A stretch of 10,120 bases of DNA, taken from positions 1-10,120 of the forward strand of contig JAFVAA010000888.1 of NCBI GenBank assembly GCA_017476305.1. The letters are read 5' to 3'. Positions 1-10,120 of this stretch are shown here, one piece after another. Positions within the stretch are counted from its first letter, which is position 1. Each line of letters opens with the position of its first letter. The position numbers and the translations under genes are program-made. The notes under the pieces are model-generated. The model was not told the DNA's origin, searched no databases, and was given only the letters and a program-made list of their open reading frames with translations. This stretch comes from Lachnospiraceae bacterium (GTDB lineage: Bacteria > Bacillota > Clostridia > Lachnospirales > Lachnospiraceae).

Positions 1-4
1 ATCT

Positions 5-243
5 TTGGTGCTTTAGCACTAATCTATCCAACATATCGAAGATATGTTATCAATTTCTAATTCAGAATAACAATAACAATTTAGGTGTCATATCCTTGAC
101 ACGAGCGGGAATAAGAAAAACACTATTAGTTGTTCCGTTCCCATAGGGTATTTCTCATCGCGAAGAGAGTTTTAAGACACAGCTAAAGCTGTGCAGCAAA
201 GCCCGTTACTATTTGCAGACGGAATAGCTATAAACAGTAACCG
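5..243 (+). ncRNA. Cluster of stem-loops, candidate structured RNA
   Basis: This gene-free stretch carries at least five clear hairpins in about 240 bases. A 7-bp stem at 5-22 has a TTTA loop. An 8-bp stem at 30-48 (AACATATC/GATATGTT) has a GAA triloop. A 6-bp stem lies at 85-102 (GTGTCA/TGACAC). A nested element at 107-142 pairs GGGAAT with GTTCCC around an inner bulged stem. A 6-bp stem at 178-193 (CACAGC/GCTGTG) has a TAAA loop. A further imperfect stem pairs 205-210 with 236-241. There is no usable reading frame with a ribosome binding site. The density and variety of stems, with unpaired A-rich linkers, resembles a structured RNA rather than a terminator, and no T-run follows any stem. 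It could belong to a known class such as the clostridial raiA motif, but that is only an impression. The strand is not certain, and the left edge may lie outside the window. Confidence 0.4.
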
Positions 244-271
244 AAAGTATGAAAAAAGGAGAATACGCAGT

Positions 272-300
272 TTGACAAGAGGGCAGGTCTATACTATAAT
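272..300 (+). promoter_or_regulatory. Perfect-consensus sigma-A promoter
   Basis: The -35 box TTGACA (272-277) and the -10 box TATAAT (295-300) both match the consensus exactly and are separated by the optimal 17 bases. A transcript would start near 307, giving a leader of about 68 bases before the start codon at 375. It most likely drives the PAS-repeat protein. Such a strong core promoter in front of a signalling gene suggests either high expression or control by a repressor or by the leader RNA. Confidence 0.85.
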
Positions 301-306
301 TTTGGT

Positions 307-331
307 ATTACCTATCATAATAGTATGTAAT
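307..331 (+). promoter_or_regulatory. Hairpin at the predicted 5' end of the mRNA
   Basis: ATTAC-CTAT (307-315) pairs with ATAG (320-323) and GTAAT (327-331) around a CATA loop, with a three-base TAT bulge on the 3' side. The stem begins almost exactly at the start site predicted from the promoter at 272-300, so it would cap the transcript. Such 5' hairpins can protect mRNA from decay. A role here is inferred from position only. Confidence 0.4.
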
Positions 332-374
332 GGGAATACGGATAGAAAAATAGTAGAAAGGGGGATATGGATTT

Positions 375-2564
375 ATGTTTGGTTTTGAGAAGGATTTTTA
401 TCAGAATCTGTTTGAGTCTTTAGATAATAATTCCGTGCTTATGCGCGTAGGCGAGAATGGTGCCTATGAGCCTGTCTGGTGTTCCAGGGAATATGCGGAA
501 ATGATGGAAGGGACAAAGGAAGAGTGTATTCAGCGTGAAAGTGAAGAGGAGAACGATCTGGTTCATCCGGCTGACAGGGAAGAAGTATCCTATCTCTTTA
601 AAAATCAGGTTACGAAGGATGGTACGAACAATTTGACGGTTCGAAAAAAAACATTACAGGGAAAAAATATCTGGGTAAATGTTCATTATGCTTTTGTAAA
701 AGAGGGCGGGGTGCAGTATGCGTACTGTACCTATATTGATGTGACAGAGCTGATACAGAGTCAGCAGCAGACCATGGCGATGTACCGGGAATTAAATAAG
801 GAGCTGGATGCGCTGTCCAGCCAGAGTCTGGCTGCGCTGCGTTCGAATCTGACGAAGGGTGTCGTAGAAGAGGTGCATGGAACGGATCTCTATGATGTGG
901 ATAAGCCTGGTGCACCGATAGAGGATCTGATACGTGTCCGTATGGAGAATATGCCGGTAGCTTCTGACAGGGAGACGTATGTAAAGGTATTTGATTTGGA
1001 GGAGCTTCAAAGAAAGTATTATCTGGGCGAGGGACCTTCCTCCCTGGTTATTTTTTCCAGAAGGCAGTCCGGGAGACAGTGCTTTATCAAGTATTCTGCC
1101 TCTATGCGGAAGGATCCGGTGACGGGTGATGTCATTGTACTGGGCGTAGAGACGGAGTACAACTCACAGAAGGTGACGGAGATTTTAAATGATAAGGTAT
1201 TGGCAAAGCAGTATGATTTTGTGGGCTATATCGTGGATGAAAACTATGGAATCTCCATAGGGGACGCGGCAAACATAGGAAAAGGCAGTATTTTCCCGAA
1301 GAAACGGGATGGAATCTATATGGATTACATAAGAGAGCAGGTGCTTCCTGTGGTTCCGGAAAAGGAACGGGAGATGACATTACACGCTCTTTCTTTAGAT
1401 ACCATTGAAAAAGAATTAGAGACGGAAGAGGATTACACTGTAGATGTAAATTGTGTGATCGAGGGAGAAAAATTCTTTAAACGTTTTACGTTTTATACAG
1501 TGGATAAAAAGACGAAATTTTATATCTTTTTAAAGGCAGATATCACGGATGCGATACGGGAGCAGGGAGAGCGCGAACAGACACAGGCGACCTATAACAG
1601 TATGCTCGATCAGTTCAATGCGATGGCAGATGAGAGTCTGACGGTGCAGAGAACGAATCTGACGACGGGACTTATAGAGGAGTCGAGAGGCCGTGATCTC
1701 TATGATACCGACTATGCGGGAGGCTCTATCGCAGAAAGTGCGAGGGTTCGTTCGGAAAGCTTTTTAGTAGAGGGTGACAGGGAAAAGTATGAGGAGACCT
1801 TTGCGTTAGATAAGCTGCTAGAGCGTACCTTGTCCGGAAAGGGACCGGCGACCTTTGTAGGGTATTGCCGCAGGCAGTCCGGTCGTCAGTGCTTCGTGAA
1901 ATTCTCCGGTTCTGCCAGTAAAAATCCGGTGACCGGTGAGGTGATCGCATTTGGCGTGGAGACGGAATATAATACCGAAATGGTAAATCAGGTGTTGGAC
2001 GAAAAGGTTTTAGCACAGCAGTATGATATGATTACCTATATCGTCAATGGTTACTATGGCGTGGCGATTGGTGATGCGGCGAACATCGAAAAGGGCAGTA
2101 TCTTCCCGAAAGAAAAAAATGGAGTTTACATGGATTATCTCTTAGAACAGGTGCTTCCTGTGGTCGAGGGATCGAAGGAAGATAAGGAGGCGATGTTAGA
2201 GGCACTTTCTTTAGAAACGATAGAGGCGAAGCTAAACGAAAGCGAACCTTACAGTGTGGATGTGCCATGTGAGATAGAAGGCGAGAGCTTTCATAAACGG
2301 TTTATGTTCTATGCGGTAGACCGGGAGAGAAATTTCTATCTTCTTTTAAAATCGGATATGACAGAGGTGCTAAGAGAGCAGAGGGAGAGAGAGCGGACGC
2401 AGACGATTCATAATAGTATGATGGATCAGTTCAATTCGATGGCAGACGAAAGTCTGACGGTCGTTCGTTCGAGCATGACGACAGGACTTGTCGAAGATAT
2501 CCGGGGGAATGATCTGTACGATACGGACTACCCGGAGTGGATGCGTGCTCGGTCAGCCTTTTGA
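375..2564 (+). pseudogene. PAS-repeat sensor protein, truncated in its third repeat
   Basis: This is a 729-codon frame with the ribosome binding site AAAGGGGGA at 357-365 and ATG at 375. Residues about 1-128 look like a PAS sensor domain, ending in the usual D-V-T-E linker. A repeat of about 270 residues follows. Repeat 1 begins at S151, repeat 2 at S421 and repeat 3 at S693. Shared motifs include the NLTxG strand, DLYDxD, RRQSGRQCF, DPVTG/NPVTG, GVETEYN and YG-x2-IGDAANI. Each unit probably contains two PAS-like folds joined by a helical linker rich in E, R and Q. Repeat 3 breaks off after DLYDTDYP (residue 720), and the last nine residues are out-of-frame reading of a copper ATPase scrap. 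Related Lachnospiraceae proteins normally end in an output domain such as GGDEF, EAL or histidine kinase, and here that end is missing. The truncated protein could still be made from its strong promoter but would lack output. The PAS assignment of the repeats is by resemblance. Confidence 0.75.
825..2533 (+). repeat. Tandem coding repeat, about 270 codons per unit
   Basis: The three units start at about 825, 1635 and 2451. The first two are complete and the third is cut after about 83 bases. The units are clearly homologous in protein and partly in DNA: for example AGTCTGACGGT recurs at the start of units 2 and 3. Internal homology of this length makes the gene prone to recombination. Confidence 0.8.
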
Positions 2565-2756
2565 CAAATTCCATGGGTGTAGAGGGTACGGCTTCCGGCA
2601 TGGAGATTATTCAGGCAGTAGAAAAGTCTCGTCCTTACAGGACTTATCATGGTCATTAATCAGAAATTCTTTATAAATGGTTTTAAGAGCCTTCTTCACA
2701 GGGCACCGAACATGGATGCCCTGGTGGCATTGGGGGCTTCCACAGCATTCCTTTGA
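2534..2756 (+). pseudogene. Copper P-type ATPase (CopA) remnant, two pieces
   Basis: Two stretches of one P1B-type copper ATPase survive in different frames. In the frame starting at 2534, residues reading DACSVSLLTNSMGVEG and then EIIQAVEK match the second half of an N-terminal heavy-metal-binding (HMA) domain. In the frame starting at 2643, INQKFFINGFKSLLHRAPNM and DALVALGAS match the conserved membrane segment ahead of the CopA transport site, ending at TGA 2754-2756. The region between them (end of HMA plus the first membrane helices) is missing, and so are the CPC motif, phosphorylation domain and nucleotide-binding domain. The left edge is fused to the PAS-repeat gene and the right edge to a histidine kinase tail. 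The piece cannot encode a transporter. The family call rests on the highly characteristic APNMDxLVALGA motif. Confidence 0.8.
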
Positions 2757-3086
2757 ATAGGGCAGGTGCTTGCCAATCTGCTGTCGAATGCAATCAAATA
2801 TACTGATGAAAACGGCAGGATATCCATATCGGTGAAAAAAGAACAGGATAGAGTGGAATTTGCCGTGGAGGATACAGGGATAGGAATTTCAGAGAATGAA
2901 ACCGGTCGTGTGTTTGAGCGGTTTTACCGAACAGACAAGTCGAGAGCGAGGAAGACAGGAGGAGCTGGAATTGGTCTTTCTATAGCCAGGGCAATCGTAC
3001 AGGCACATCATGGGACGATTACATGTGAAAGCAGACCTGGGGCTGGCAGTCGGTTTCTTGTTACGTTACCTGAAAAAGACAATTGA
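2757..3086 (+). pseudogene. Histidine kinase, C-terminal ATPase domain only
   Basis: The frame reads straight out of the copper ATPase scrap after its stop codon and encodes about 109 residues of a HATPase_c domain. The N box is NLLSNAIKYT, the G1 box DTGIGIS, the F box FERFYRTDKSR and the G2 box GGAGIGLSIA, followed by the usual GSRF-x-VTLP end and a stop at 3086. The sensor part, membrane segments and phospho-accepting histidine are absent. A GTG at 2766 could serve as a start, but no convincing ribosome binding site precedes it, so translation is doubtful. In its parent this would be a sensor kinase paired with a response regulator, and none is present nearby. It is not the natural end of the PAS-repeat gene on present evidence, because copper ATPase DNA lies between them. 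Confidence 0.85.
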
Positions 3087-3168
3087 GTTTATAAGAAAGG
3101 ATGGGAAAAAGTATTTGAAATGAAATGACAGAAATATCCAGGGATGGAATTGATGAAAGGAGAATAGT

Positions 3169-4133
3169 ATGGCATTAGTGACAGACGGAAAAATGGATCA
3201 GAGGATAAACAGGGTTGTAGATAATCTTATGAAAGATTATGAGGAAGGGAAAGCCATTGATGAAATTAAGATTTTTGAGCGTCCGAACAGGGATACTGTA
3301 GTTGATATTTTGGAAAAGCTGAGAAAGATCGTGTATCCGGGATATTACACAGCTTTAAGATATACACTGTTCGGAATAATACAACGATGCTTCTGGAAGA
3401 TGTAATCTATAATTTGATTTCACAGATTGCGATTGTTTTGAAATATTCACCACAATATGAAAAAGCGGATTCAGAAGTGATTTCACAGGCTTCCGAGCGG
3501 ATTACGTTTGATTTCCTTGACAGGCTGCCTAAAATCCGGTCTTTTATAGAAACGGATGTACAGGCGGCATTTGACGGGGATCCTGCCGCTTATAATAAGG
3601 ATGAGATTATCTGTACCTATCCGGGGCTGTTTGCAACATTGACAAACCGCATCGCACATGAGCTATATCTGCTTGGAGTTCCTTTGATACCGAGAATCAT
3701 GACGGAGTACGCCCATAGCGTGACAGGGATTGATATCCATCCGGGAACCACGATTGGCAAATATTTTTTTATCGACCACGGAACAGGCATTGTGATTGGA
3801 GAAACTACGGTAATCGGGGATAATGTAAAAATATATCAGGGTGTGACGCTGGGGGCACTTTCGACCAGAGGCGGTCAGAACCTGAAAAACGTGAAAAGGC
3901 ATCCGACAATCTGTGATAACGTTACGATTTATTCCGGAGCCTCTATTTTAGGAGGAGATACTGTGGTGGGAAAAGATGTCGTGGTCGGAGGTAATGCTTT
4001 TATCACGACATCCATTCCGGAAGGTGCGAGAGTCAGTGTAAAAAGTCAGGAGCTGATGTATAATTATGATGCAGGTCATCCGGTCGAAAGAAAAGAACTT
4101 GAAATGGATGAATCATGGTATTATATGATATAA
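3169..4133 (+). pseudogene. cysE: Serine O-acetyltransferase with a frameshift
   Basis: The enzyme makes O-acetylserine from serine and acetyl-CoA, the first step of cysteine synthesis. The start at 3169 has the ribosome binding site GAAAGGAG (3155-3162). The first frame runs to 3405, and the rest of the protein continues in another frame to TAA at 4133, about 321 residues in total, the usual length of the long-form clostridial enzyme. The N-terminal helical domain spans both frames. The hexapeptide beta-helix with acyltransferase residues follows: HSVTGIDIHPG, DHGTGIVIGETTVIGD, YQGVTLGALS and VVGGNAF. The break lies at the T-run 3354-3356. Adding one T would read GCT TTT AAG ATA TAC ACT and join the frames as Y-T-A-F-K-I-Y-T-V. 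An internal start at 3387 would lack the N-terminal domain. The cause could be a real one-base loss or a sequencing error in a homopolymer. Confidence 0.85.
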
Positions 4134-4136
4134 CAC

Positions 4137-4146
4137 AGGAGGTGAT
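4137..4146 (+). promoter_or_regulatory. Ten-base perfect Shine-Dalgarno
   Basis: AGGAGGTGAT is fully complementary to the 16S rRNA 3' end and lies four bases after the serine acetyltransferase stop. It fixes the start of the nitroreductase remnant at ATG 4153. Such a strong site in front of a gene broken after 12 codons shows the gene was once well expressed. Confidence 0.8.
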
Positions 4147-4152
4147 GGCAGA

Positions 4153-4447
4153 ATGAACACAGCAGAATTGATAAGAACCAGAAGAAGCACTGGAAATGGC
4201 GCGCTTAGCACCATCTGCCGTAAACAAGCAGCCGTGACGTATTGTCAGAGAGGGAAATTATTTTCATTTTTACATCAGGCATGATAAGGGATACATTATG
4301 GATCATACATGGGACATGCAAAAAATTGATATGGGAATTGCGCTTTGTCATTTCATGAGTGTGAAGCCGGGCGGACTTTCTATAGTGAATCCTGGAATTG
4401 CTGTAAGTGATGATATCATTGCATGGCTTAAAGAGCAAAAAGCATAA
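4153..4447 (+). pseudogene. Nitroreductase-family flavoenzyme, internally deleted
   Basis: Pieces of a single FMN-dependent nitroreductase survive in order. The ATG frame gives MNTAELIRTRRS, the typical first helix and RRS motif. From 4187 a different frame gives ALEMARLAPSAVNKQP, the conserved substrate and FMN contact segment. A TGA at 4235-4237 stands where family members have tryptophan (QPWR), followed by RIVREGNYFHFY. The frame continues to WDMQKIDMGIALCHFMSV and VNPGIAVSDDIIAWLKEQKA, ending in TAA at 4447. About 98 codons remain, far fewer than the usual 170 or more. At least two deletions are needed: one after RRS, with a change of frame, and one or more inside the middle. The gene follows the serine acetyltransferase by 19 bases and was probably in its operon. 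No functional enzyme can result. Confidence 0.8.
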
Positions 4448-4517
4448 AACAGAAAGCGTTCATTGTAACGGATTTTTGACGGAAATACATGAAAAGACTG
4501 TAAGAAGAGGAAGGATT

Positions 4518-5315
4518 ATGAAAATTGCATTGGCACAGATGAAGATGTCTGCTGACATCAAAGAAAATTATAAAAAAACACTACAGCTCATTTGTGAAGC
4601 CTCAAAGCGGGGGGCAGAAATGATTTGTTTTCCGGAGATTCAGCTTACCCCGTTTTTTCCACAATATCCGGATCGTGATGTAGACGAATATACCATGACA
4701 GAGGATGGCAGTTATGTGAAAGGCATATGCGAAGCATGTAAGGCTTATCATATATTTGCTTCTCCCAATCTCTACATGGAAAAAGATGGATGCAGATACG
4801 ATATGAGTCTTCTCATTGATGACCAGGGGGAGATAATCGGCAGACATAAAATGGTGCATATAGCCAAGTGTGAGAAGTTTTATGAACAGAGTTATTATAC
4901 CCCTTCGGAAGAGGGATTTTCGGTTTTTGAAACGAGACTTGGGAAAATAGGAATCGTCGTATGTTTTGACCGGCATTATCCGGAGAGCATACGGACGGAG
5001 GCACTTCGAGGAGCAGAACTGATTGTGATACCCACAGCGAATACTTCCGAGGAGCCTTCTGAACTATTTCAATGGGAAATTCGGGTTCAGGCATTTCAGA
5101 ACAGTGTCAATATTGCCATGTGTAATCGTGTGGGTATCGAGGAAAATATGAATTTTTCCGGGGAATCACTTCTCTGCGATTGTATGGGAAATATCATTGC
5201 AGCTGCCGGGGATACAGAGGAACTGCTGGTAGCCGATGTGGATGTTCCAAAAGCAGCCGTGACGCGAAAGGCAAAGCCATACACATCCCTCCGCAGAAAG
5301 GAACTGTATGAGTGA
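4518..5315 (+). CDS. Carbon-nitrogen hydrolase (nitrilase superfamily)
   Basis: The product is a cytosolic amidase of 265 residues, a normal length for the family. The catalytic triad is visible: Glu40 in CFPEIQ, Lys111 in GRHKMVHIA and Cys149 in GIVVCFDRHYPES. These enzymes hydrolyse small amides or carbamoyl compounds. N-carbamoylputrescine amidase and omega-amidase are the nearest familiar types, but the substrate cannot be read from the sequence. The start at 4518 is chosen because GAGGAAGG (4507-4514) lies just upstream and the protein then begins MKIALAQMK, the standard first strand. The open frame extends back to 4407, but that part overlaps the nitroreductase remnant. The gene looks intact. 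It converges with the minus-strand hydrolase 18 bases downstream. No clear promoter of its own was found, so it may be read from upstream. Confidence 0.9.
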   Translation: MKIALAQMKMSADIKENYKKTLQLICEASKRGAEMICFPEIQLTPFFPQYPDRDVDEYTMTEDGSYVKGICEACKAYHIFASPNLYMEKDGCRYDMSLLIDDQGEIIGRHKMVHIAKCEKFYEQSYYTPSEEGFSVFETRLGKIGIVVCFDRHYPESIRTEALRGAELIVIPTANTSEEPSELFQWEIRVQAFQNSVNIAMCNRVGIEENMNFSGESLLCDCMGNIIAAAGDTEELLVADVDVPKAAVTRKAKPYTSLRRKELYE

Positions 5316-5333
5316 ATAACGCTGTCCTTTTTG

Positions 5334-6212
5334 TTATAAAAAGCTTTTGAAAAAATTGCATTCTTCATCATTGCAGAGCTTTGCTTCCTCTGATTTTATA
5401 TCGCAGTGAAATACATGGGGAAGCATATTTTTTGCATCTCCGTAAAAGCGAAAAAGGAAAGGAATATTTTTCGAAAGAAATTTTTCTGCCAAAAGTGGAG
5501 CCTGTCCTTTCAAAAAATCATCCGTACAGGTCATGAGAAATGCAGGTGGAAATTTTTCTGTAATATAATCTGTCACCTGGATCATCTCTAATTCCTTTTC
5601 GGAACCACCCTCCGGAAGATATTCTTTCATCAGAGCGGTGGTCTGCTCGTCTCCGTCGGATTCGACACGATATACGCCACAATTTAAGGCAATGGCAGCC
5701 GGTACAAAGTTCGCAGGAGGTTCTATTTTGAACTTCGTCCTGTAAGCAGGATTTGTACATAGATTTACATATATCCCTAAATTGTGCGCACCGGCAGAAT
5801 CGCCTACCGCAAAGATATGTTCTGTATCAAGACCATAGTTCCCGGAATTGGCTAAAACCCATTCAAATACGGCATTCGTATCCTCCAGAGAGGCAGGAAA
5901 TTTATTTTCCGGTGCAAGTCTGTAGGTAAAATTAACGACAGCGAATCCTCTTTGTGCCAGATTCATACAGTAATACTGATAGCGTTCTTTATCGCCATAT
6001 ACCCAGCCGCCTCCATGAACGCTGACGATTACGGGAAGAGTGTTTTTCTCTGCATTTGCAGGTCTATATACATCTAAAACCTGCCATTTCGGATCACTGC
6101 CGTACACGATATTATCATACCGAAGAATATCCTCTGGCGTAGTCAGACCTGCATCACGAATATCATCATATTTTTTGAAATCGTTTCTTATTTTTTCGCT
6201 TATCTGTGACAT
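5334..6212 (-). CDS. Alpha/beta hydrolase, HSL-type esterase
   Basis: The product is a 292-residue esterase or lipase-like hydrolase. HGGGW (66-70) is the oxyanion-hole motif of the hormone-sensitive lipase group. GDSAG (137-141) holds the nucleophile Ser139. Asp231 or Asp232 in TCTDDFLKGQ and His266 in PHVFH complete the triad. No signal peptide is visible, so it is probably cytosolic. Likely substrates are short acyl or acetyl esters, for example from plant glycans or small molecules, but this is inferred from the family. The start is supported by AAAGGAGG (6218-6225 read on the minus strand) five bases before the ATG. A promoter lies at 6303-6331. It is the only minus-strand gene in the window and appears complete. 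Confidence 0.9.
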   Translation of the reverse strand: MSQISEKIRNDFKKYDDIRDAGLTTPEDILRYDNIVYGSDPKWQVLDVYRPANAEKNTLPVIVSVHGGGWVYGDKERYQYYCMNLAQRGFAVVNFTYRLAPENKFPASLEDTNAVFEWVLANSGNYGLDTEHIFAVGDSAGAHNLGIYVNLCTNPAYRTKFKIEPPANFVPAAIALNCGVYRVESDGDEQTTALMKEYLPEGGSEKELEMIQVTDYITEKFPPAFLMTCTDDFLKGQAPLLAEKFLSKNIPFLFRFYGDAKNMLPHVFHCDIKSEEAKLCNDEECNFFKSFL

Positions 6213-6302
6213 GAAAACCTCCTTTTTCCGGTTCCATTACCCGGTCCGTCCGGTTCTTCAGGCAATGCAGTACCGGGAATCTGTATTTTTTTCTATACAA
6301 AC

Positions 6303-6331
6303 AACATATCACAAATATCGTATAAAAACAA
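6303..6331 (-). promoter_or_regulatory. Probable promoter of the alpha/beta hydrolase
   Basis: Read on the minus strand, TTGTTT (6326-6331) and TATGTT (6303-6308) are spaced by 17 bases. The predicted leader to the start codon is about 85 bases. The match is moderate (4 of 6 in each box), but spacing and position fit. Confidence 0.4.
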
Positions 6332-6496
6332 GCAGACTGTGAGATCTTTTCAGAGCAGATGTGAACAGTTACTGTAATTTCGGGATAGTTATGGAGGGCA
6401 GACTGCCGCTTTTTCTGTGGTAAAAAGAGAGTGGCTGTGCTATACTTTATATTGTAGCATATGCAGTTTAGTTATACTATGCTTGCGTGATTGGCA

Positions 6497-6541
6497 TTGT
6501 ACTTTTTTGACAAGGTACAGTATGATAGGAATAAGGTACAG
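6497..6541 (+). promoter_or_regulatory. Promoter-like region with 21-bp spaced repeats
   Basis: TTGTAC (6497-6502) and TATGAT (6521-6526) are separated by 18 bases. AAGGTACAG occurs exactly twice, at 6512-6520 and 6533-6541, a distance of 21 bases or two helical turns. The first GTAC also forms an inverted pair with GTAC at 6499-6502. Repeats placed on one face of the helix around a -10 box suggest binding of a regulator, and the long spacer would fit a MerR-type activator. This is inference. It would control the DUF4405/flavodoxin genes downstream. Confidence 0.4.
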
Positions 6542-6608
6542 ACAGAAGGTTTATTTTGGAGAAGGAGCAGCAAAGGCGAATTTAAAAAAATAATAAGGAG
6601 AGAAGCGG

Positions 6609-6863
6609 ATGCATGGTTTGGAAAATAAAAAGGTAAAAATGGTTATTGATATTCTGATGACGATACTTCTGTTCATTCTGATGGCATATCACTATATCGG
6701 TCAGATGTGGCATGAGATATCGGGAACGGTCATGTTTCTACTGTTTGTATTTCATCATGTGATGAACAGGAAATGGTATCTGGCGATCGGAAAAGGAAAG
6801 TATCCGGCAGGTTGGGTTCTTTTCACGGTCAGGAAGGGTTGTAAAGCATTTTGCGGAGCATAA
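6609..6863 (+). pseudogene. DUF4405 membrane protein, truncated
   Basis: The frame encodes 84 residues with ribosome binding site AAGGAG at 6595-6600. Residues about 10-27 (MVIDILMTILLFILMAYH) and 38-51 are membrane helices. Histidines in YHYIGQMWHEISG and FHHVMNRKWY resemble the heme-ligand positions of cytochrome b-like DUF4405 proteins. The family normally has about four helices. Here the family sequence ends near GKGKYPAGWVLFTV (about 6828), and the last ten residues are flavodoxin coding DNA read out of frame. A deletion therefore joined this gene to the next, or removed the middle of one fused DUF4405-flavodoxin gene. Without its third and fourth helices it is unlikely to work. Confidence 0.7.
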
Positions 6864-7467
6864 AAAAAGATATTTGATTTTATCGGCTGCTTTGGTGGTC
6901 ATCTGTGTTTTGTTTTTTCTGTTTGGTGGACGAACCTATATAAAAAGACATTATCAGACGGTCCATGTGGATCGGGCAAAGGAAACACTGACAGAAAAGG
7001 TGGACATGAATGGGAAAAATGGCATCATCATTTATTTTACCAGAGTGGGAAATACGAATTTTAAGGAAAATGTGGATGCGGTTTCGAGTGCATCTTTAAT
7101 GGAGGAAAATGGAATCCTGATTGGAAACAGTGAACTTTTAGCAGAAATGCTTGAAAATGCCACAGGCTATCCATCCTATGCTATCAGGACAAAGAAAAAA
7201 TACTCCTCCAGCTATGGGGATACGGTCAGTGAAGCGAAGAAAGAGATGGATGAGAATATCCCTTCGGAGCTGGAAAACGATATTCCGGATTTGTCAGAAT
7301 ATGATACGGTAGTATTGGTATATCCCCTTTGGTGGGGAACGCTCCCGATGCCGGTACAGACTTTTTTATCGGAAAATGATCTGGAGGGAAAGACGGTTTA
7401 CTCTCTGGTGACGCACGGAGGGAGCGGCTTAAAAAAACTGCCTCTTGACGGAGCAGTATCTTTGTGA
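6838..7467 (+). pseudogene. Membrane-anchored flavodoxin, damaged at both ends
   Basis: The frame is recognisable from about 6838 (VVKHFAEHKKRYLIL). A membrane segment of about 16 residues follows (LILSAALVVICVLFFLF), then a flavodoxin domain. The phosphate-binding loop is YFTRVGNTNF, the flavin-stacking loop VYPLWWGTLPMPV and the third loop VTHGGSG. The family normally continues for 40 or more residues after THGGSG. Here only LKKLPLDGAVSL remains before TGA at 7467. That tail may be the end of the same protein after an in-frame deletion, or DNA from the promoter region of the next gene. No good start codon exists: TTG at 6874 lacks a well-placed ribosome binding site. With DUF4405 upstream the parent was probably a membrane electron-transfer unit. 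It is unlikely to bind FMN normally. Confidence 0.75.
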
Positions 7468-7473
7468 GATAAT
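7445..7473 (+). promoter_or_regulatory. Probable promoter of the flavodoxin/radical SAM pair
   Basis: TTGACG (7445-7450) and GATAAT (7468-7473) are each one base from consensus and are spaced by 17 bases. The site overlaps the last codons of the damaged flavodoxin. The leader to ATG 7571 would be about 90 bases and includes a GCAGA/TCTGC hairpin at 7517-7530 nested within TATGCA/TGCATA arms (7514-7519 and 7538-7543). Confidence 0.5.
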
Positions 7474-7570
7474 ATATTTTGTAAAATTTAATTGAGCAAA
7501 ATGAAAATATCAATATGCAGAAAAATCTGCGTGCAGTTGCATAAAATTTTATTATGGGAGGGTGATGGAT

Positions 7571-7978
7571 ATGAAGGCTGCAATTCGTTATTATACCCAG
7601 ACGGGCAACACAAAGAAACTTGCAGAAGCAATCGCTACACAGCTTGGTATCGAGGCTAAGTCTGTGGAGGAGCCATTAGAAGAGAAAACGGAAATTCTGT
7701 TCCTCTGCAATAGTGTCTATTGGGCGGGCATTGACAAACATGTCAAACAGTTTGTGAAAGCAAACGCGGGAAAAATTGGTACACTTGTAAATGTAAGCAC
7801 TGCTGCAATGATCGAATCCACCTATAATCAGATGAAACGAGTGGCAGCAGAGACGGGTGTGAACATAAGCGGGAAAGAGTTCCATTGTCGTGGGAAGTTT
7901 GCGGCACTGCATTCCAAGCATCCAAACGAGGAGGATATTAGTGCAGTAAAAGAATTTGCAAAGAAGGTGGCAGGATGA
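7571..7978 (+). CDS. Flavodoxin
   Basis: The product is a small soluble FMN-binding electron carrier of 135 residues, typical for the family. The signature TQTGNT (residues 9-14) forms the phosphate-binding loop after the first beta strand (MKAAIRYY). The middle loop LCNSVYWAGI supplies aromatic residues to stack on the flavin. GGGAGGG at 7556-7562 places the ribosome binding site correctly for ATG 7571. The GTG and ATG at 7562 and 7565 lie on or next to it. The stop codon overlaps the start of the radical SAM gene (ATGA at 7975-7978), so the two are translationally coupled. This strongly suggests the flavodoxin is the reductant for that enzyme. The gene looks intact. Confidence 0.85.
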   Translation: MKAAIRYYTQTGNTKKLAEAIATQLGIEAKSVEEPLEEKTEILFLCNSVYWAGIDKHVKQFVKANAGKIGTLVNVSTAAMIESTYNQMKRVAAETGVNISGKEFHCRGKFAALHSKHPNEEDISAVKEFAKKVAG

Positions 7979-9078
7979 GAGAAAAAGCGGAAAATTTTGA
8001 TATTCAGGAATATATGACAAGAGGTGTGGAACGGGTGGTTTCAGATACTATGAAAGCTACACGGAAGGATCCAAAGGAAAGTGCTTTCATGCTGAAATTT
8101 GCTGCTGCCAGCAGATCCGCATCAAAGAAACGAAAAAAGGCAGAGGAACAGGGGGAGCATATTCCGCCATTTTTGATTGCCAGCATTACCAGTCAGTGCA
8201 ATCTCCACTGTGCCGGCTGTTATTCGCGCTGTAATCACGCCACTTTGGATGCAGAGCCGATAGCACAGCTGACGAGTGAGGAATGGCTGAATATTTTTAG
8301 TGAGGCAGATGATTTGGGCATAAGCTTTATCCTTCTGGCAGGGGGAGAACCGATGATCAGGCAGGATATTATTGAGGCGGCGGGAAAACGGCAGAGCATT
8401 CTTTTTCCGATTTTTACCAATGGCACCTTTATGAGCGGTACATATTTTGAGCTTTTTGACAGATGCCGAAATCTTATCCCGATCATGAGTATCGAGGGAG
8501 AGAGGCAGATTACGGATGAGAGACGTGGTCAAGGTGTGTATGATCAGCTGATCAAAAACATGGGTGAACTTCATGACAGAGGATTGATATTTGGTGCTTC
8601 TGTCACTGTGACGACACAGAACATAAAAGAAGTAACATCGGATGATTTTTTGCGGATACTTTCCGAAAGGGGATGTAAAGCAGTTATCTTTGTGGAGTTT
8701 GTGCCTGTTACTGATGAGAGTAAGGAATTGGCACCGGGAGATGCGGAAAGGGAATACTTACGTGACGAGATAAAAAGGCTGCGTGCCGATCAGCCGGAGA
8801 TGGTTTATATTTCTTTCCCCGGAGATGAAAAAAGCTCCGGAGGCTGTGTGGCGGCCGGACGAGGATTTTTCCATATCAATTCTCATGGTGGTGCAGAGCC
8901 CTGCCCGTTCTCGCCCTATTCTGATGTTAATATCAGAAATACATCTCTTAGGGAGGCGATGCATTCCCCACTGTTTACCGCACTGCGGGAGGGGAATCTT
9001 CTCATGGACGACCATGATGGGGGCTGTATTCTCTATGAAAAGAAGGAGCAGGTGGAGGCATTGCTTGCGGGGAACTGA
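7975..9078 (+). CDS. Radical SAM protein with SPASM/twitch-like C-terminus
   Basis: This 367-residue enzyme has CNLHCAGC, with Cys75, Cys79 and Cys82 in the CX3CX2C pattern binding the 4Fe-4S cluster that cleaves SAM. GGEP (123-126) binds the SAM amino group. The barrel continues through TNGTFM, SIEG and SVTVT. The C-terminal part, GGCVAAGRGFFHINSHGGAEPC with Cys291 and Cys310, and later Cys351, has the look of an auxiliary-cluster domain (SPASM or twitch). Such domains are common in peptide-modifying and anaerobic maturase enzymes of the MoaA/PqqE group. The N-terminal 60 residues are charged and helical. The ATGA overlap with the flavodoxin marks one operon. No small precursor-peptide gene is visible beside it, so a peptide-modifying role is not supported, and the substrate is unknown. 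The gene appears intact. Confidence 0.88.
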   Translation: MREKAENFDIQEYMTRGVERVVSDTMKATRKDPKESAFMLKFAAASRSASKKRKKAEEQGEHIPPFLIASITSQCNLHCAGCYSRCNHATLDAEPIAQLTSEEWLNIFSEADDLGISFILLAGGEPMIRQDIIEAAGKRQSILFPIFTNGTFMSGTYFELFDRCRNLIPIMSIEGERQITDERRGQGVYDQLIKNMGELHDRGLIFGASVTVTTQNIKEVTSDDFLRILSERGCKAVIFVEFVPVTDESKELAPGDAEREYLRDEIKRLRADQPEMVYISFPGDEKSSGGCVAAGRGFFHINSHGGAEPCPFSPYSDVNIRNTSLREAMHSPLFTALREGNLLMDDHDGGCILYEKKEQVEALLAGN

Positions 9079-9121
9079 GAATGAGAAGAAGAGGGGGCAT
9101 TCTGTTTCTTGGGACTTCGCT

Positions 9122-9814
9122 ATGGAAAATATGATGGTGGTCGGCTCAAAGTATTGGAATCTTATCAGCTAAAAGGAGGTCTGGCTTTTGAATCGTGGCA
9201 ACAGGAAAGCCGGAATACCGGAGGGCGTCCGTCCGAGCCATACCTATGATGAACGGTATATTCCGCTGGGGGTGCATGGAAGGAATGGGTTCTGGCAGGT
9301 CATAAAACGCATGATGGAGGAAAAGCCGGTCATCATTCAGGGGGATGGCACATCTCTGTGGACGGTAACTTTTAACAGGGATTTTGCAATCGGCTATACG
9401 GGGCTGATGGGGAACCGTCATGCAATCGGAGAGGCTTTTCAGATTACAGGGGACGAAACTCTTACATGGAATCAGATTTATGAAACGATTGCGGATGCTC
9501 TTGGTGTGAAGCTGCATGCTTACCATGTATCCTCAGAATTTCTGGCGGCCGTCGGAGATAAATATGGCTTTGATTTGGAAGGAAGTCTGGTGGGTGATAA
9601 GTCAGTTTCTGTGGTATTTGATAACAGCAAGTTAAAGAGGGCAGTGCCGGATATGCGGACAACGGTGCGGTTTGATGAAGGAGTGAGAATTGCACTTCAT
9701 TATGTGCTTTCGCATCCGGAGGAATGTCAAAAGGAAGACCCGGAATTTGATGCGTGGTGTGACAGGGTGATTGCTGCATTGGAAAAGGCAAAAGAGGAAA
9801 TTATGTATCGCTAA
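9122..9814 (+). pseudogene. NAD-dependent epimerase, nonsense codon and internal deletion
   Basis: From 9122 the frame gives MENMMVVGSKYWNLIS, resembling the first Rossmann strand and glycine motif (usually VVGGSKYFG), then TAA at 9170-9172. The same frame resumes with KEVWLLNRGNRKAGIPEGV, the second strand and NAD-binding turn. It jumps directly at about 9227 to RPSHTYDERYIPLGVHG, which lies well after the YxxxK active site in intact proteins. About 100 residues, including the catalytic Tyr and Lys, are therefore missing. The C-terminal substrate domain is well preserved (VIIQGDGTSLW, FQITGDETLTWNQIYETIAD, YHVSSEFLAA) and ends at TAA 9814. A TTG at 9188 preceded by AAAGGAGG (9172-9179) could start a 208-residue product, but it would lack catalytic residues. 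Family members act on nucleotide sugars or related substrates. The direct GTCCGTCCG at the junction may mark a short-homology deletion. Confidence 0.75.
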
Positions 9815-9855
9815 GGAGATTTTTTATACTTATTAAGGAGATTTTTTATACTCAT
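9812..9855 (+). repeat. Two tandem 22-base units carrying ribosome-binding-site-like sequence
   Basis: Units 9812-9833 and 9834-9855 differ at one base only (T or C near the end). Each contains AAGGAG, a T-run and ATACTYATTAA. The first unit begins in the stop codon of the epimerase. In each, AAGGAG is followed after seven bases by ATA where a start codon would be expected. Confidence 0.9.
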
Positions 9856-9890
9856 TAACGAAACGGCAAGCCATTTCGTTAATGAGTATA
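9847..9890. repeat. Perfect 17-bp inverted repeat with 10-base spacer
   Basis: The arms 9847-9863 and 9874-9890 are exact reverse complements beginning TATACTCATTAACG. The spacer CGGCAAGCCA itself contains GGC/GCC. The left arm overlaps the second 22-base unit. Four Ts follow the right arm (9891-9894), so it may act as a terminator for the epimerase, but the stem is A/T-rich and longer than usual. A recombination or mobile-element end is an alternative. Confidence 0.8.
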
Positions 9891-9892
9891 TT

Positions 9893-10108
9893 TTGGAGAA
9901 CAGTACCTTTGAATATTCTACGGCAGATGCGGATATTGACGGCAAAATTGACAGTGTTATGAATCCGGCTGGAGGGATCATCCGGGCAGACCGGATTGAT
10001 GAACTGATTCTGGAAAAGGATAAAGTAGATACAAAGGCAACGAAGGTTATCTGCAGGAGCCGGATGGACAGAAAGTGTCCCATAGGATTGTGTAGACAGG
10101 CGGGTTAG
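9893..10108 (+). CDS. Unidentified reading frame, possibly a gene fragment
   Basis: I do not recognise this protein. From TTG 9893 it gives LENSTFEYSTADADIDGKID, then SVMNPAGGIIRADRIDELIL and EKDKVDTKATKVI, a composition typical of real coding DNA. The frame stays open upstream through the palindrome back to the epimerase stop (reading LINETASHFVNEY across it), but no ATG occurs. The last residues (CRSRMDRKCPIGLC) look less natural. Another frame at about 10045-10095 reads YLQEPDGQKVSHRIV before a stop, so a frameshift near 10040 is possible. There is no convincing ribosome binding site at 9893. It may be a fragment joined to the palindrome, or a gene whose start codon has become ATA (9848). 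Confidence 0.35.
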   Translation: MENSTFEYSTADADIDGKIDSVMNPAGGIIRADRIDELILEKDKVDTKATKVICRSRMDRKCPIGLCRQAG

Positions 10109-10120
10109 AACGTATGAAAT

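Follow-up and report, generated by a model that had tools for sequence, protein, structure and literature searches.

Shortened genes with little-worn remains on one contig of a ruminant-gut-related Lachnospiraceae draft genome

Shortened genes and their pieces

The window analysed here is a stretch of 10,120 bases that makes up the whole of contig C810 of a Lachnospiraceae draft genome (G000; 4.01 Mb in 957 contigs, 79% complete), and it carries a run of incomplete genes interspersed with whole ones (Table 1). We mapped the broken genes against intact relatives by tblastn and DNA alignment, with reading frames of genome G009 often serving as the reference. Four genes, encoding CopA, a nitroreductase, a DUF4405-flavodoxin protein and an epimerase, were each found as two pieces that kept their order, with about 230 to 500 bases lost between them. 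Three more, encoding a PAS-repeat hybrid histidine kinase, a second histidine kinase and a DUF3737 protein, were shortened. Intact homologues exist for the four two-piece genes, the DUF3737 gene and the PAS kinase. The original prediction, made from the sequence of the window, had also counted at least seven broken genes; the number holds once the gene for serine O-acetyltransferase (SAT), whose lesion is doubtful given its intact counterpart in a sister record (protein P0160), is set aside and the DUF3737 gene is added.

Judged on the sequence, the correct order and strand of the two pieces in each of four genes excludes chance. Mapping against intact relatives bears out the proposal that these four genes keep ordered, same-strand pieces, the N-terminal piece of the nitroreductase being assigned by reading of the translation. 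The further proposal, that many separate short deletions rather than a single loss or an insertion shaped the region, stands for the same four genes; the joins between the PAS kinase and CopA and between CopA and the second kinase connect different genes, and simple deletion was not demonstrated at these two joins.

Table 1. Features of the window and of the RUG441 gene compared with it
Feature	Positions	Strand	Basis or remark
PAS-repeat hybrid histidine kinase, N-terminal part	375..2531	+	paralogues of 1,077 and 1,097 aa on G000 contig C849
CopA piece 1, residues 41-72 of 860-residue G009 frame	2534..2629	+	tblastn, 69% identity; junction alignment
CopA piece 2, residues 149-190, then gene cut	2628..2753	+	tblastn, 74% identity
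Histidine kinase, C-terminal HATPase domain; N-terminal part gone	2757..3086	+	Pfam HATPase_c, E=2.3e-31, open reading frame 2766-3086
Serine O-acetyltransferase, 7-base loss in window version	3169..4133	+	intact in P0160
Nitroreductase remnant	4153..4444	+	homologues G068, G034, G126, L236; first 12 residues by reading
Carbon-nitrogen hydrolase, 265 aa, whole	4518..5315	+	Pfam PF00795, profile 1-255 of 256
Alpha/beta hydrolase, 292 aa, whole	5334..6212	-	Pfam BD-FAE, profile 1-200 of 215
Possible iron-containing alcohol dehydrogenase N-terminal scrap	6533..6593	+	reading of translation, weak
DUF4405, first piece	6609..6842	+	73% identity to intact G009 protein
Flavodoxin part, last 46 residues missing	6829..7430	+	82% DNA identity to G009 contig C328 over 6843-7430
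Promoter-like stretch TTGACG-17-GATAAT and conserved AT-rich element	7445..7502	+	before small flavodoxin and radical SAM genes
Small flavodoxin, 138 aa, unbroken frame	7562..7978	+	Pfam Flavodoxin_3, profile 2-114 of 160
Radical SAM protein, 367 aa, whole	7975..9078	+	near-full-length match in 20 of 22 loci
Epimerase piece 1, residues 27-44	9176..9229	+	tblastn with P0002, 78% identity
Epimerase piece 2, residues 150-340	9227..9814	+	in-frame join to piece 1
DUF3737 remnant, about 49 residues near protein end	9908..10054	+	69% identity to G012
RUG441 DUF4405-flavodoxin gene	locus L208 (G061 = RUG441, contig C60), about 840-1780		internal losses at three places (186, 102 and 193 bases) when compared with G009

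The PAS protein ends near 2531, at a point beyond which its 1,077-residue paralogue continues for several hundred residues; its open reading frame runs on to 2564, into other sequence, and the missing part presumably comprised kinase and receiver domains, as in the paralogues. The two CopA pieces meet near 2626-2629; the original prediction had put this junction at 2643. A second CopA of G000 is divided between C898 and the start of C427. The nitroreductase retains residue 187 onward of frames that are 279 to 304 residues long, preceded by 12 residues that were read from the translation as its N-terminus and that gave no significant tblastn match. Its pieces meet near 4181-4190, a further small gap lies near 4355-4370, and a TGA codon stands where four homologues have tryptophan.

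In the DUF4405-flavodoxin gene, about 476 bases were lost internally near 6829-6842, and the C-terminal residues were lost after about 7430. A search for the missing middle of the flavodoxin in other G000 contigs gave no match, although contigs under 3 kb were perhaps not visible to it. A scrap upstream of this gene, which we take, as a weak candidate, for the N-terminus of an iron-containing alcohol dehydrogenase, has a similar counterpart upstream of the same gene in G009 contig C328. The epimerase pieces join in frame near 9225-9231; among the 120 matches listed in a protein search the best identity was 88%, and none was an intact same-species copy. Contig C15 of G000 holds relatives of both the epimerase and the carbon-nitrogen hydrolase of the window at 76 to 78% identity. 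The idea that the lost pieces sit on other contigs was unsupported, CopA (C898 with C427) and the epimerase (C15) having separate relatives there. The last remnant, which we take to belong to a DUF3737 protein, lacks the N-terminal 237 residues of a 313-residue frame. Directly before it lies a near-perfect palindrome (9847-9890), to which similar sequences occur on seven further contigs of G000 (C129, C461, C293, C142, C598, C309 and C750).

Condition of the retained pieces and of the surrounding genome

We counted deviations at strongly conserved sites, defined as those kept in at least 95% of homologues (90% for CopA, with seven homologues), in five pieces of three broken genes (CopA, DUF4405-flavodoxin and epimerase); the PAS kinase, the second kinase, the nitroreductase and DUF3737 (three homologues only) were left out. 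In total, 5 of 258 such sites deviated: 1 of 118 in the epimerase (homologue median 1), 1 of 79 in the flavodoxin part (median 0), 2 of 24 in DUF4405 (median 0), and 1 of 19 and 0 of 18 in the CopA pieces (medians 0 and 0). The window exceeded the homologue median in three of the five pieces and the largest homologue value in none. As controls, the acetyltransferase and radical SAM genes gave 2 of 162 and 1 of 155 deviations, respectively. Across the eleven retained pieces bounded by the junctions (5,526 bases, with small overlaps), a single internal stop was found. Drift without constraint was not seen, the tested pieces lying within the range of working homologues. Because conserved sites are nearly unchanged and only one stop occurs, long neutral decay is out for CopA, the flavodoxin and the epimerase, and the suggestion of a region decaying in the usual sense is not supported. 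The near-unworn state of the tested pieces leaves two possibilities: losses that happened very recently, or losses that are in part the product of faulty assembly.

The extent of damage elsewhere was counted with about 1.4 Mb of relatives as the yardstick and genes matched at 50% identity or more, a fuller count being limited to closed open reading frames. Forty-eight G000 contigs were fetched, 14 of which were all N; the 34 with sequence contained no internal N runs. The damage sample comprised 37 loci out of the 957 contigs. A first count returned 26 full genes, 1 truncated, none with internal deletions or frame shifts, and 5 lying at the edges of contigs. Once the reference set had been enlarged and three loci added, the figures were 27 full, 4 truncated, none internal or frame-shifted, and 8 at edges. 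The four truncated matches, at 51 to 57% identity, are perhaps shared domains. In the window, treated in the same way, one gene was full, one frame-shifted, two truncated and one internally deleted. Four of the five window genes were therefore broken, against 4 of 31 in the sample (p about 0.005 in a one-sided Fisher test calculated by hand, 0.02 when SAT is left out), and none of the 31 comparable genes off contig edges in the sample had an internal deletion, on which ground we rejected a fault of the whole assembly. With edges excluded, broken genes numbered 4 of 64 in G003, 2 of 56 in G012, 4 of 55 in G014 (one internal), 2 of 31 in G009, 2 of 8 in RUG441 and 1 of 10 in G034. The yardstick has two weak points: it reported internal losses elsewhere too, in G014 (1 of 55), G034 (1 of 10) and L185 (1 of 4), at least two of which have negative gaps that suggest repeats, and two of its references, P0002 and P0122, were added because of the window.

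The SAT gene stands apart. Seven bases lost near 3352 shift its frame in the window. When 5.8 billion proteins were searched, P0160 came out as the top match, an intact protein of 323 residues identical to the first 60 residues of the window version and to all 248 residues of its second frame; the runner-up, among 120 matches listed, was 89% identical. In the search output P0160 carries the same mark as the window's own proteins. The P0160 contig is 10,127 bases long, exactly 7 more than the window. Two versions of the contig seem to exist, with the SAT lesion in one only, and the large losses are probably common to both, since the lengths differ by exactly the seven SAT bases. The lesion is doubtful, either a population variant or an error, and we excluded SAT from the firm set because the two versions differ in it.

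Whole genes, regulatory stretch and source of the contig

Intact genes lie between the broken ones, as had been predicted: the carbon-nitrogen hydrolase, the alpha/beta hydrolase and the radical SAM protein are whole. DNA matches to the window in 22 loci (L180 to L201) were confined to about 7951-9082, that is, to the radical SAM gene plus the bases directly flanking it, with the exception of a short element (7465-7506) in the genome of L184. Fourteen of these 22 named loci, which encode relatives of the radical SAM protein, carry titles of Lachnospiraceae, Butyrivibrio or Pseudobutyrivibrio, many titles being those of ruminant gut samples, and the nearest relatives are in RUG441 (90% protein identity) and SRR8387716_bin.70 (88%). 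Relatives at 55 to 56% identity occur in two draft genomes labelled Methanobrevibacter, and the gene may for this reason be one that moves between genomes. In RUG441 (L180, 4180-4338), all that is left of a 255-residue protein directly after the radical SAM gene is roughly its final fifth (85% identity).

The loss after 7430 stops short of the promoter-like stretch. A 37-base element within that stretch recurs in G009 contig C66 (92% identity) and, in G065, upstream of the gene for the radical SAM protein (83%), and the AT-rich element is perhaps an operator of a small regulon.

The window is probably binned correctly in G000, since its tetranucleotide distance from the G000 sample (0.094) is smaller than that of any of the 23 other G000 contigs of at least 5 kb that were compared (0.10 to 0.29); a contaminating contig was rejected because the composition fits G000. 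A plasmid or phage origin was rejected on searches at megablast sensitivity, in which positions 1-8000 had no plasmid match and the whole window no phage match; a scan of viral contigs with P0160 returned a single distant relative (55%). Positions 1-240 are a dispersed repeat, parts of which occur on G000 contigs C102 (91%), C864, C696 and C192 and, at 87%, in G062 contig C12.

Junctions and competing explanations

Overlaps were measured at two window junctions, those of CopA and DUF4405, by alignment to both sides in G009. They amounted to 3 bases and 0 bases, respectively. The DUF4405-flavodoxin gene of RUG441 resembles that of the window in having several short internal losses and conserved remaining pieces (1 of 41 and 3 of 89 deviations), but the breakpoints differ, and two of its three losses are multiples of three. 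Overlaps at the RUG441 deletions were 7, 1 and 1 bases. Random cuts give a mean overlap of 0.75, reaching at least 7 bases in 0.085% of cases and at least 3 in 6.8%; the count is blurred by the ~80 to 90% identity of the relatives. A truncated acetyltransferase relative lies on the 4.7-kb contig C66 of G009, which presumably also holds scraps of other genes, as named by reading of translations.

We favour recent, deletion-led loss of dispensable genes, to which we give about an even chance. A dispensable gene run in a Lachnospiraceae related to those of the ruminant gut would have been cut down very recently by a series of separate deletions, including four within genes of roughly 0.2 to 0.5 kb each, while the genes between were kept. 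The deletions would exist in the cells, would have arisen where repeats are short or imperfect, through strand slippage or illegitimate recombination, and would have persisted because the genes no longer mattered. What the sequences show directly is that stretches are missing, that the pieces keep order and strand, that intact relatives exist, that the damage is local in the sample and that the tested pieces have hardly any point damage. The explanation gains from the short overlaps, the clean G000 sample and the parallel losses in relatives. An active deletion process, as had been proposed, fits both the excess of deletions and the different RUG441 deletions but was not demonstrated.

Several observations weigh against recent deletion. 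About nine junctions with almost no point change are far from ordinary neutral decay. Three other CopA relatives yield split tie points and no clean 3-base overlap, and the excess of overlap is weak, one RUG441 junction carrying most of it and the DUF4405 junction none. The sister record lacks the SAT lesion, and the large junctions are known from this one assembly alone. Finally, in Kuo and Ochman 2010 (PMC2916853), 346 of 378 Salmonella pseudogenes have a single lesion and only a small fraction lost more than 20% of their length.

The strongest alternative is a chimeric or collapsed assembly, in which pieces of whole genes, lying in a stretch with thin coverage or strain variation, were put together and the intervening parts omitted. 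The window resembles metagenome chimeric contigs in belonging to a fragmented draft, in its fresh-looking pieces, which are like those of working genes, and in having one lesion that differs between contig versions. All four measured losses are shorter than about 0.5 kb, a length that lies within the usual paired-read insert. The window differs from such contigs in lacking k-mer-sized overlaps at the measured junctions, N gaps, and like damage in the sampled contigs, and a sister record longer by exactly the seven SAT bases suggests that it has the large losses as well. The name k87_ of a further RUG441 contig agrees with the MEGAHIT co-assembly described in PMC5830445, for which k ranged from 27 to 87. 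Because such graphs join on k-mers far longer than the measured overlaps, a k-mer misjoin is unlikely, and we rejected a de Bruijn misjoin at the measured junctions of the window and of RUG441. The chimeric assembly raised in the original prediction keeps the SAT discrepancy in its favour and has the two short overlaps and the local damage against it; we regard it as a serious possibility that falls short of an even chance.

Slow neutral decay of the ordinary kind, in an old pseudogene region, would account for several adjacent broken genes, for the nonsense codon in the nitroreductase and for the three pieces above the homologue median, but the rarity of deviations in the tested pieces of three genes, never above the largest homologue value, and the lone stop make it very improbable. 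Chimeras from multiple displacement amplification of a single-cell or low-input library, of which short junction overlaps with intervening deletions are typical (PMC1855051), were rejected as slightly less probable still, because the within-gene joins here are direct in four of four cases, whereas PMC1855051 reports 337 inverted versus 11 direct joins within 10 kb.

If recent deletion is correct, the phenomenon is ordinary in kind and unusual only in the excess of deletions over point changes. As in the pseudogenes described in PMC2916853, genes with intact relatives were inactivated mainly by deletions; unlike them, several adjacent genes of the window are shorter by at least a third and at most by the greater part of their length, in some cases through two separate losses, and the tested pieces have almost no point changes. 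We consider it a long shot, suggested by the RUG441 flavodoxin gene and the G009 acetyltransferase relative, that a ruminant-gut Lachnospiraceae lineage sheds accessory genes in bursts of short deletions that outpace point mutations, through a deletion-prone state of repair or replication, with the same genes hit independently in sister species.

If the deletions do not exist in cells, the window is a warning that contigs of draft genomes can mimic pseudogenes, and a conservation test of the remains would flag them. If they do, it captures gene loss at a moment when deletions have far outpaced point mutations, and it would help to measure how gut bacteria shed their genes.

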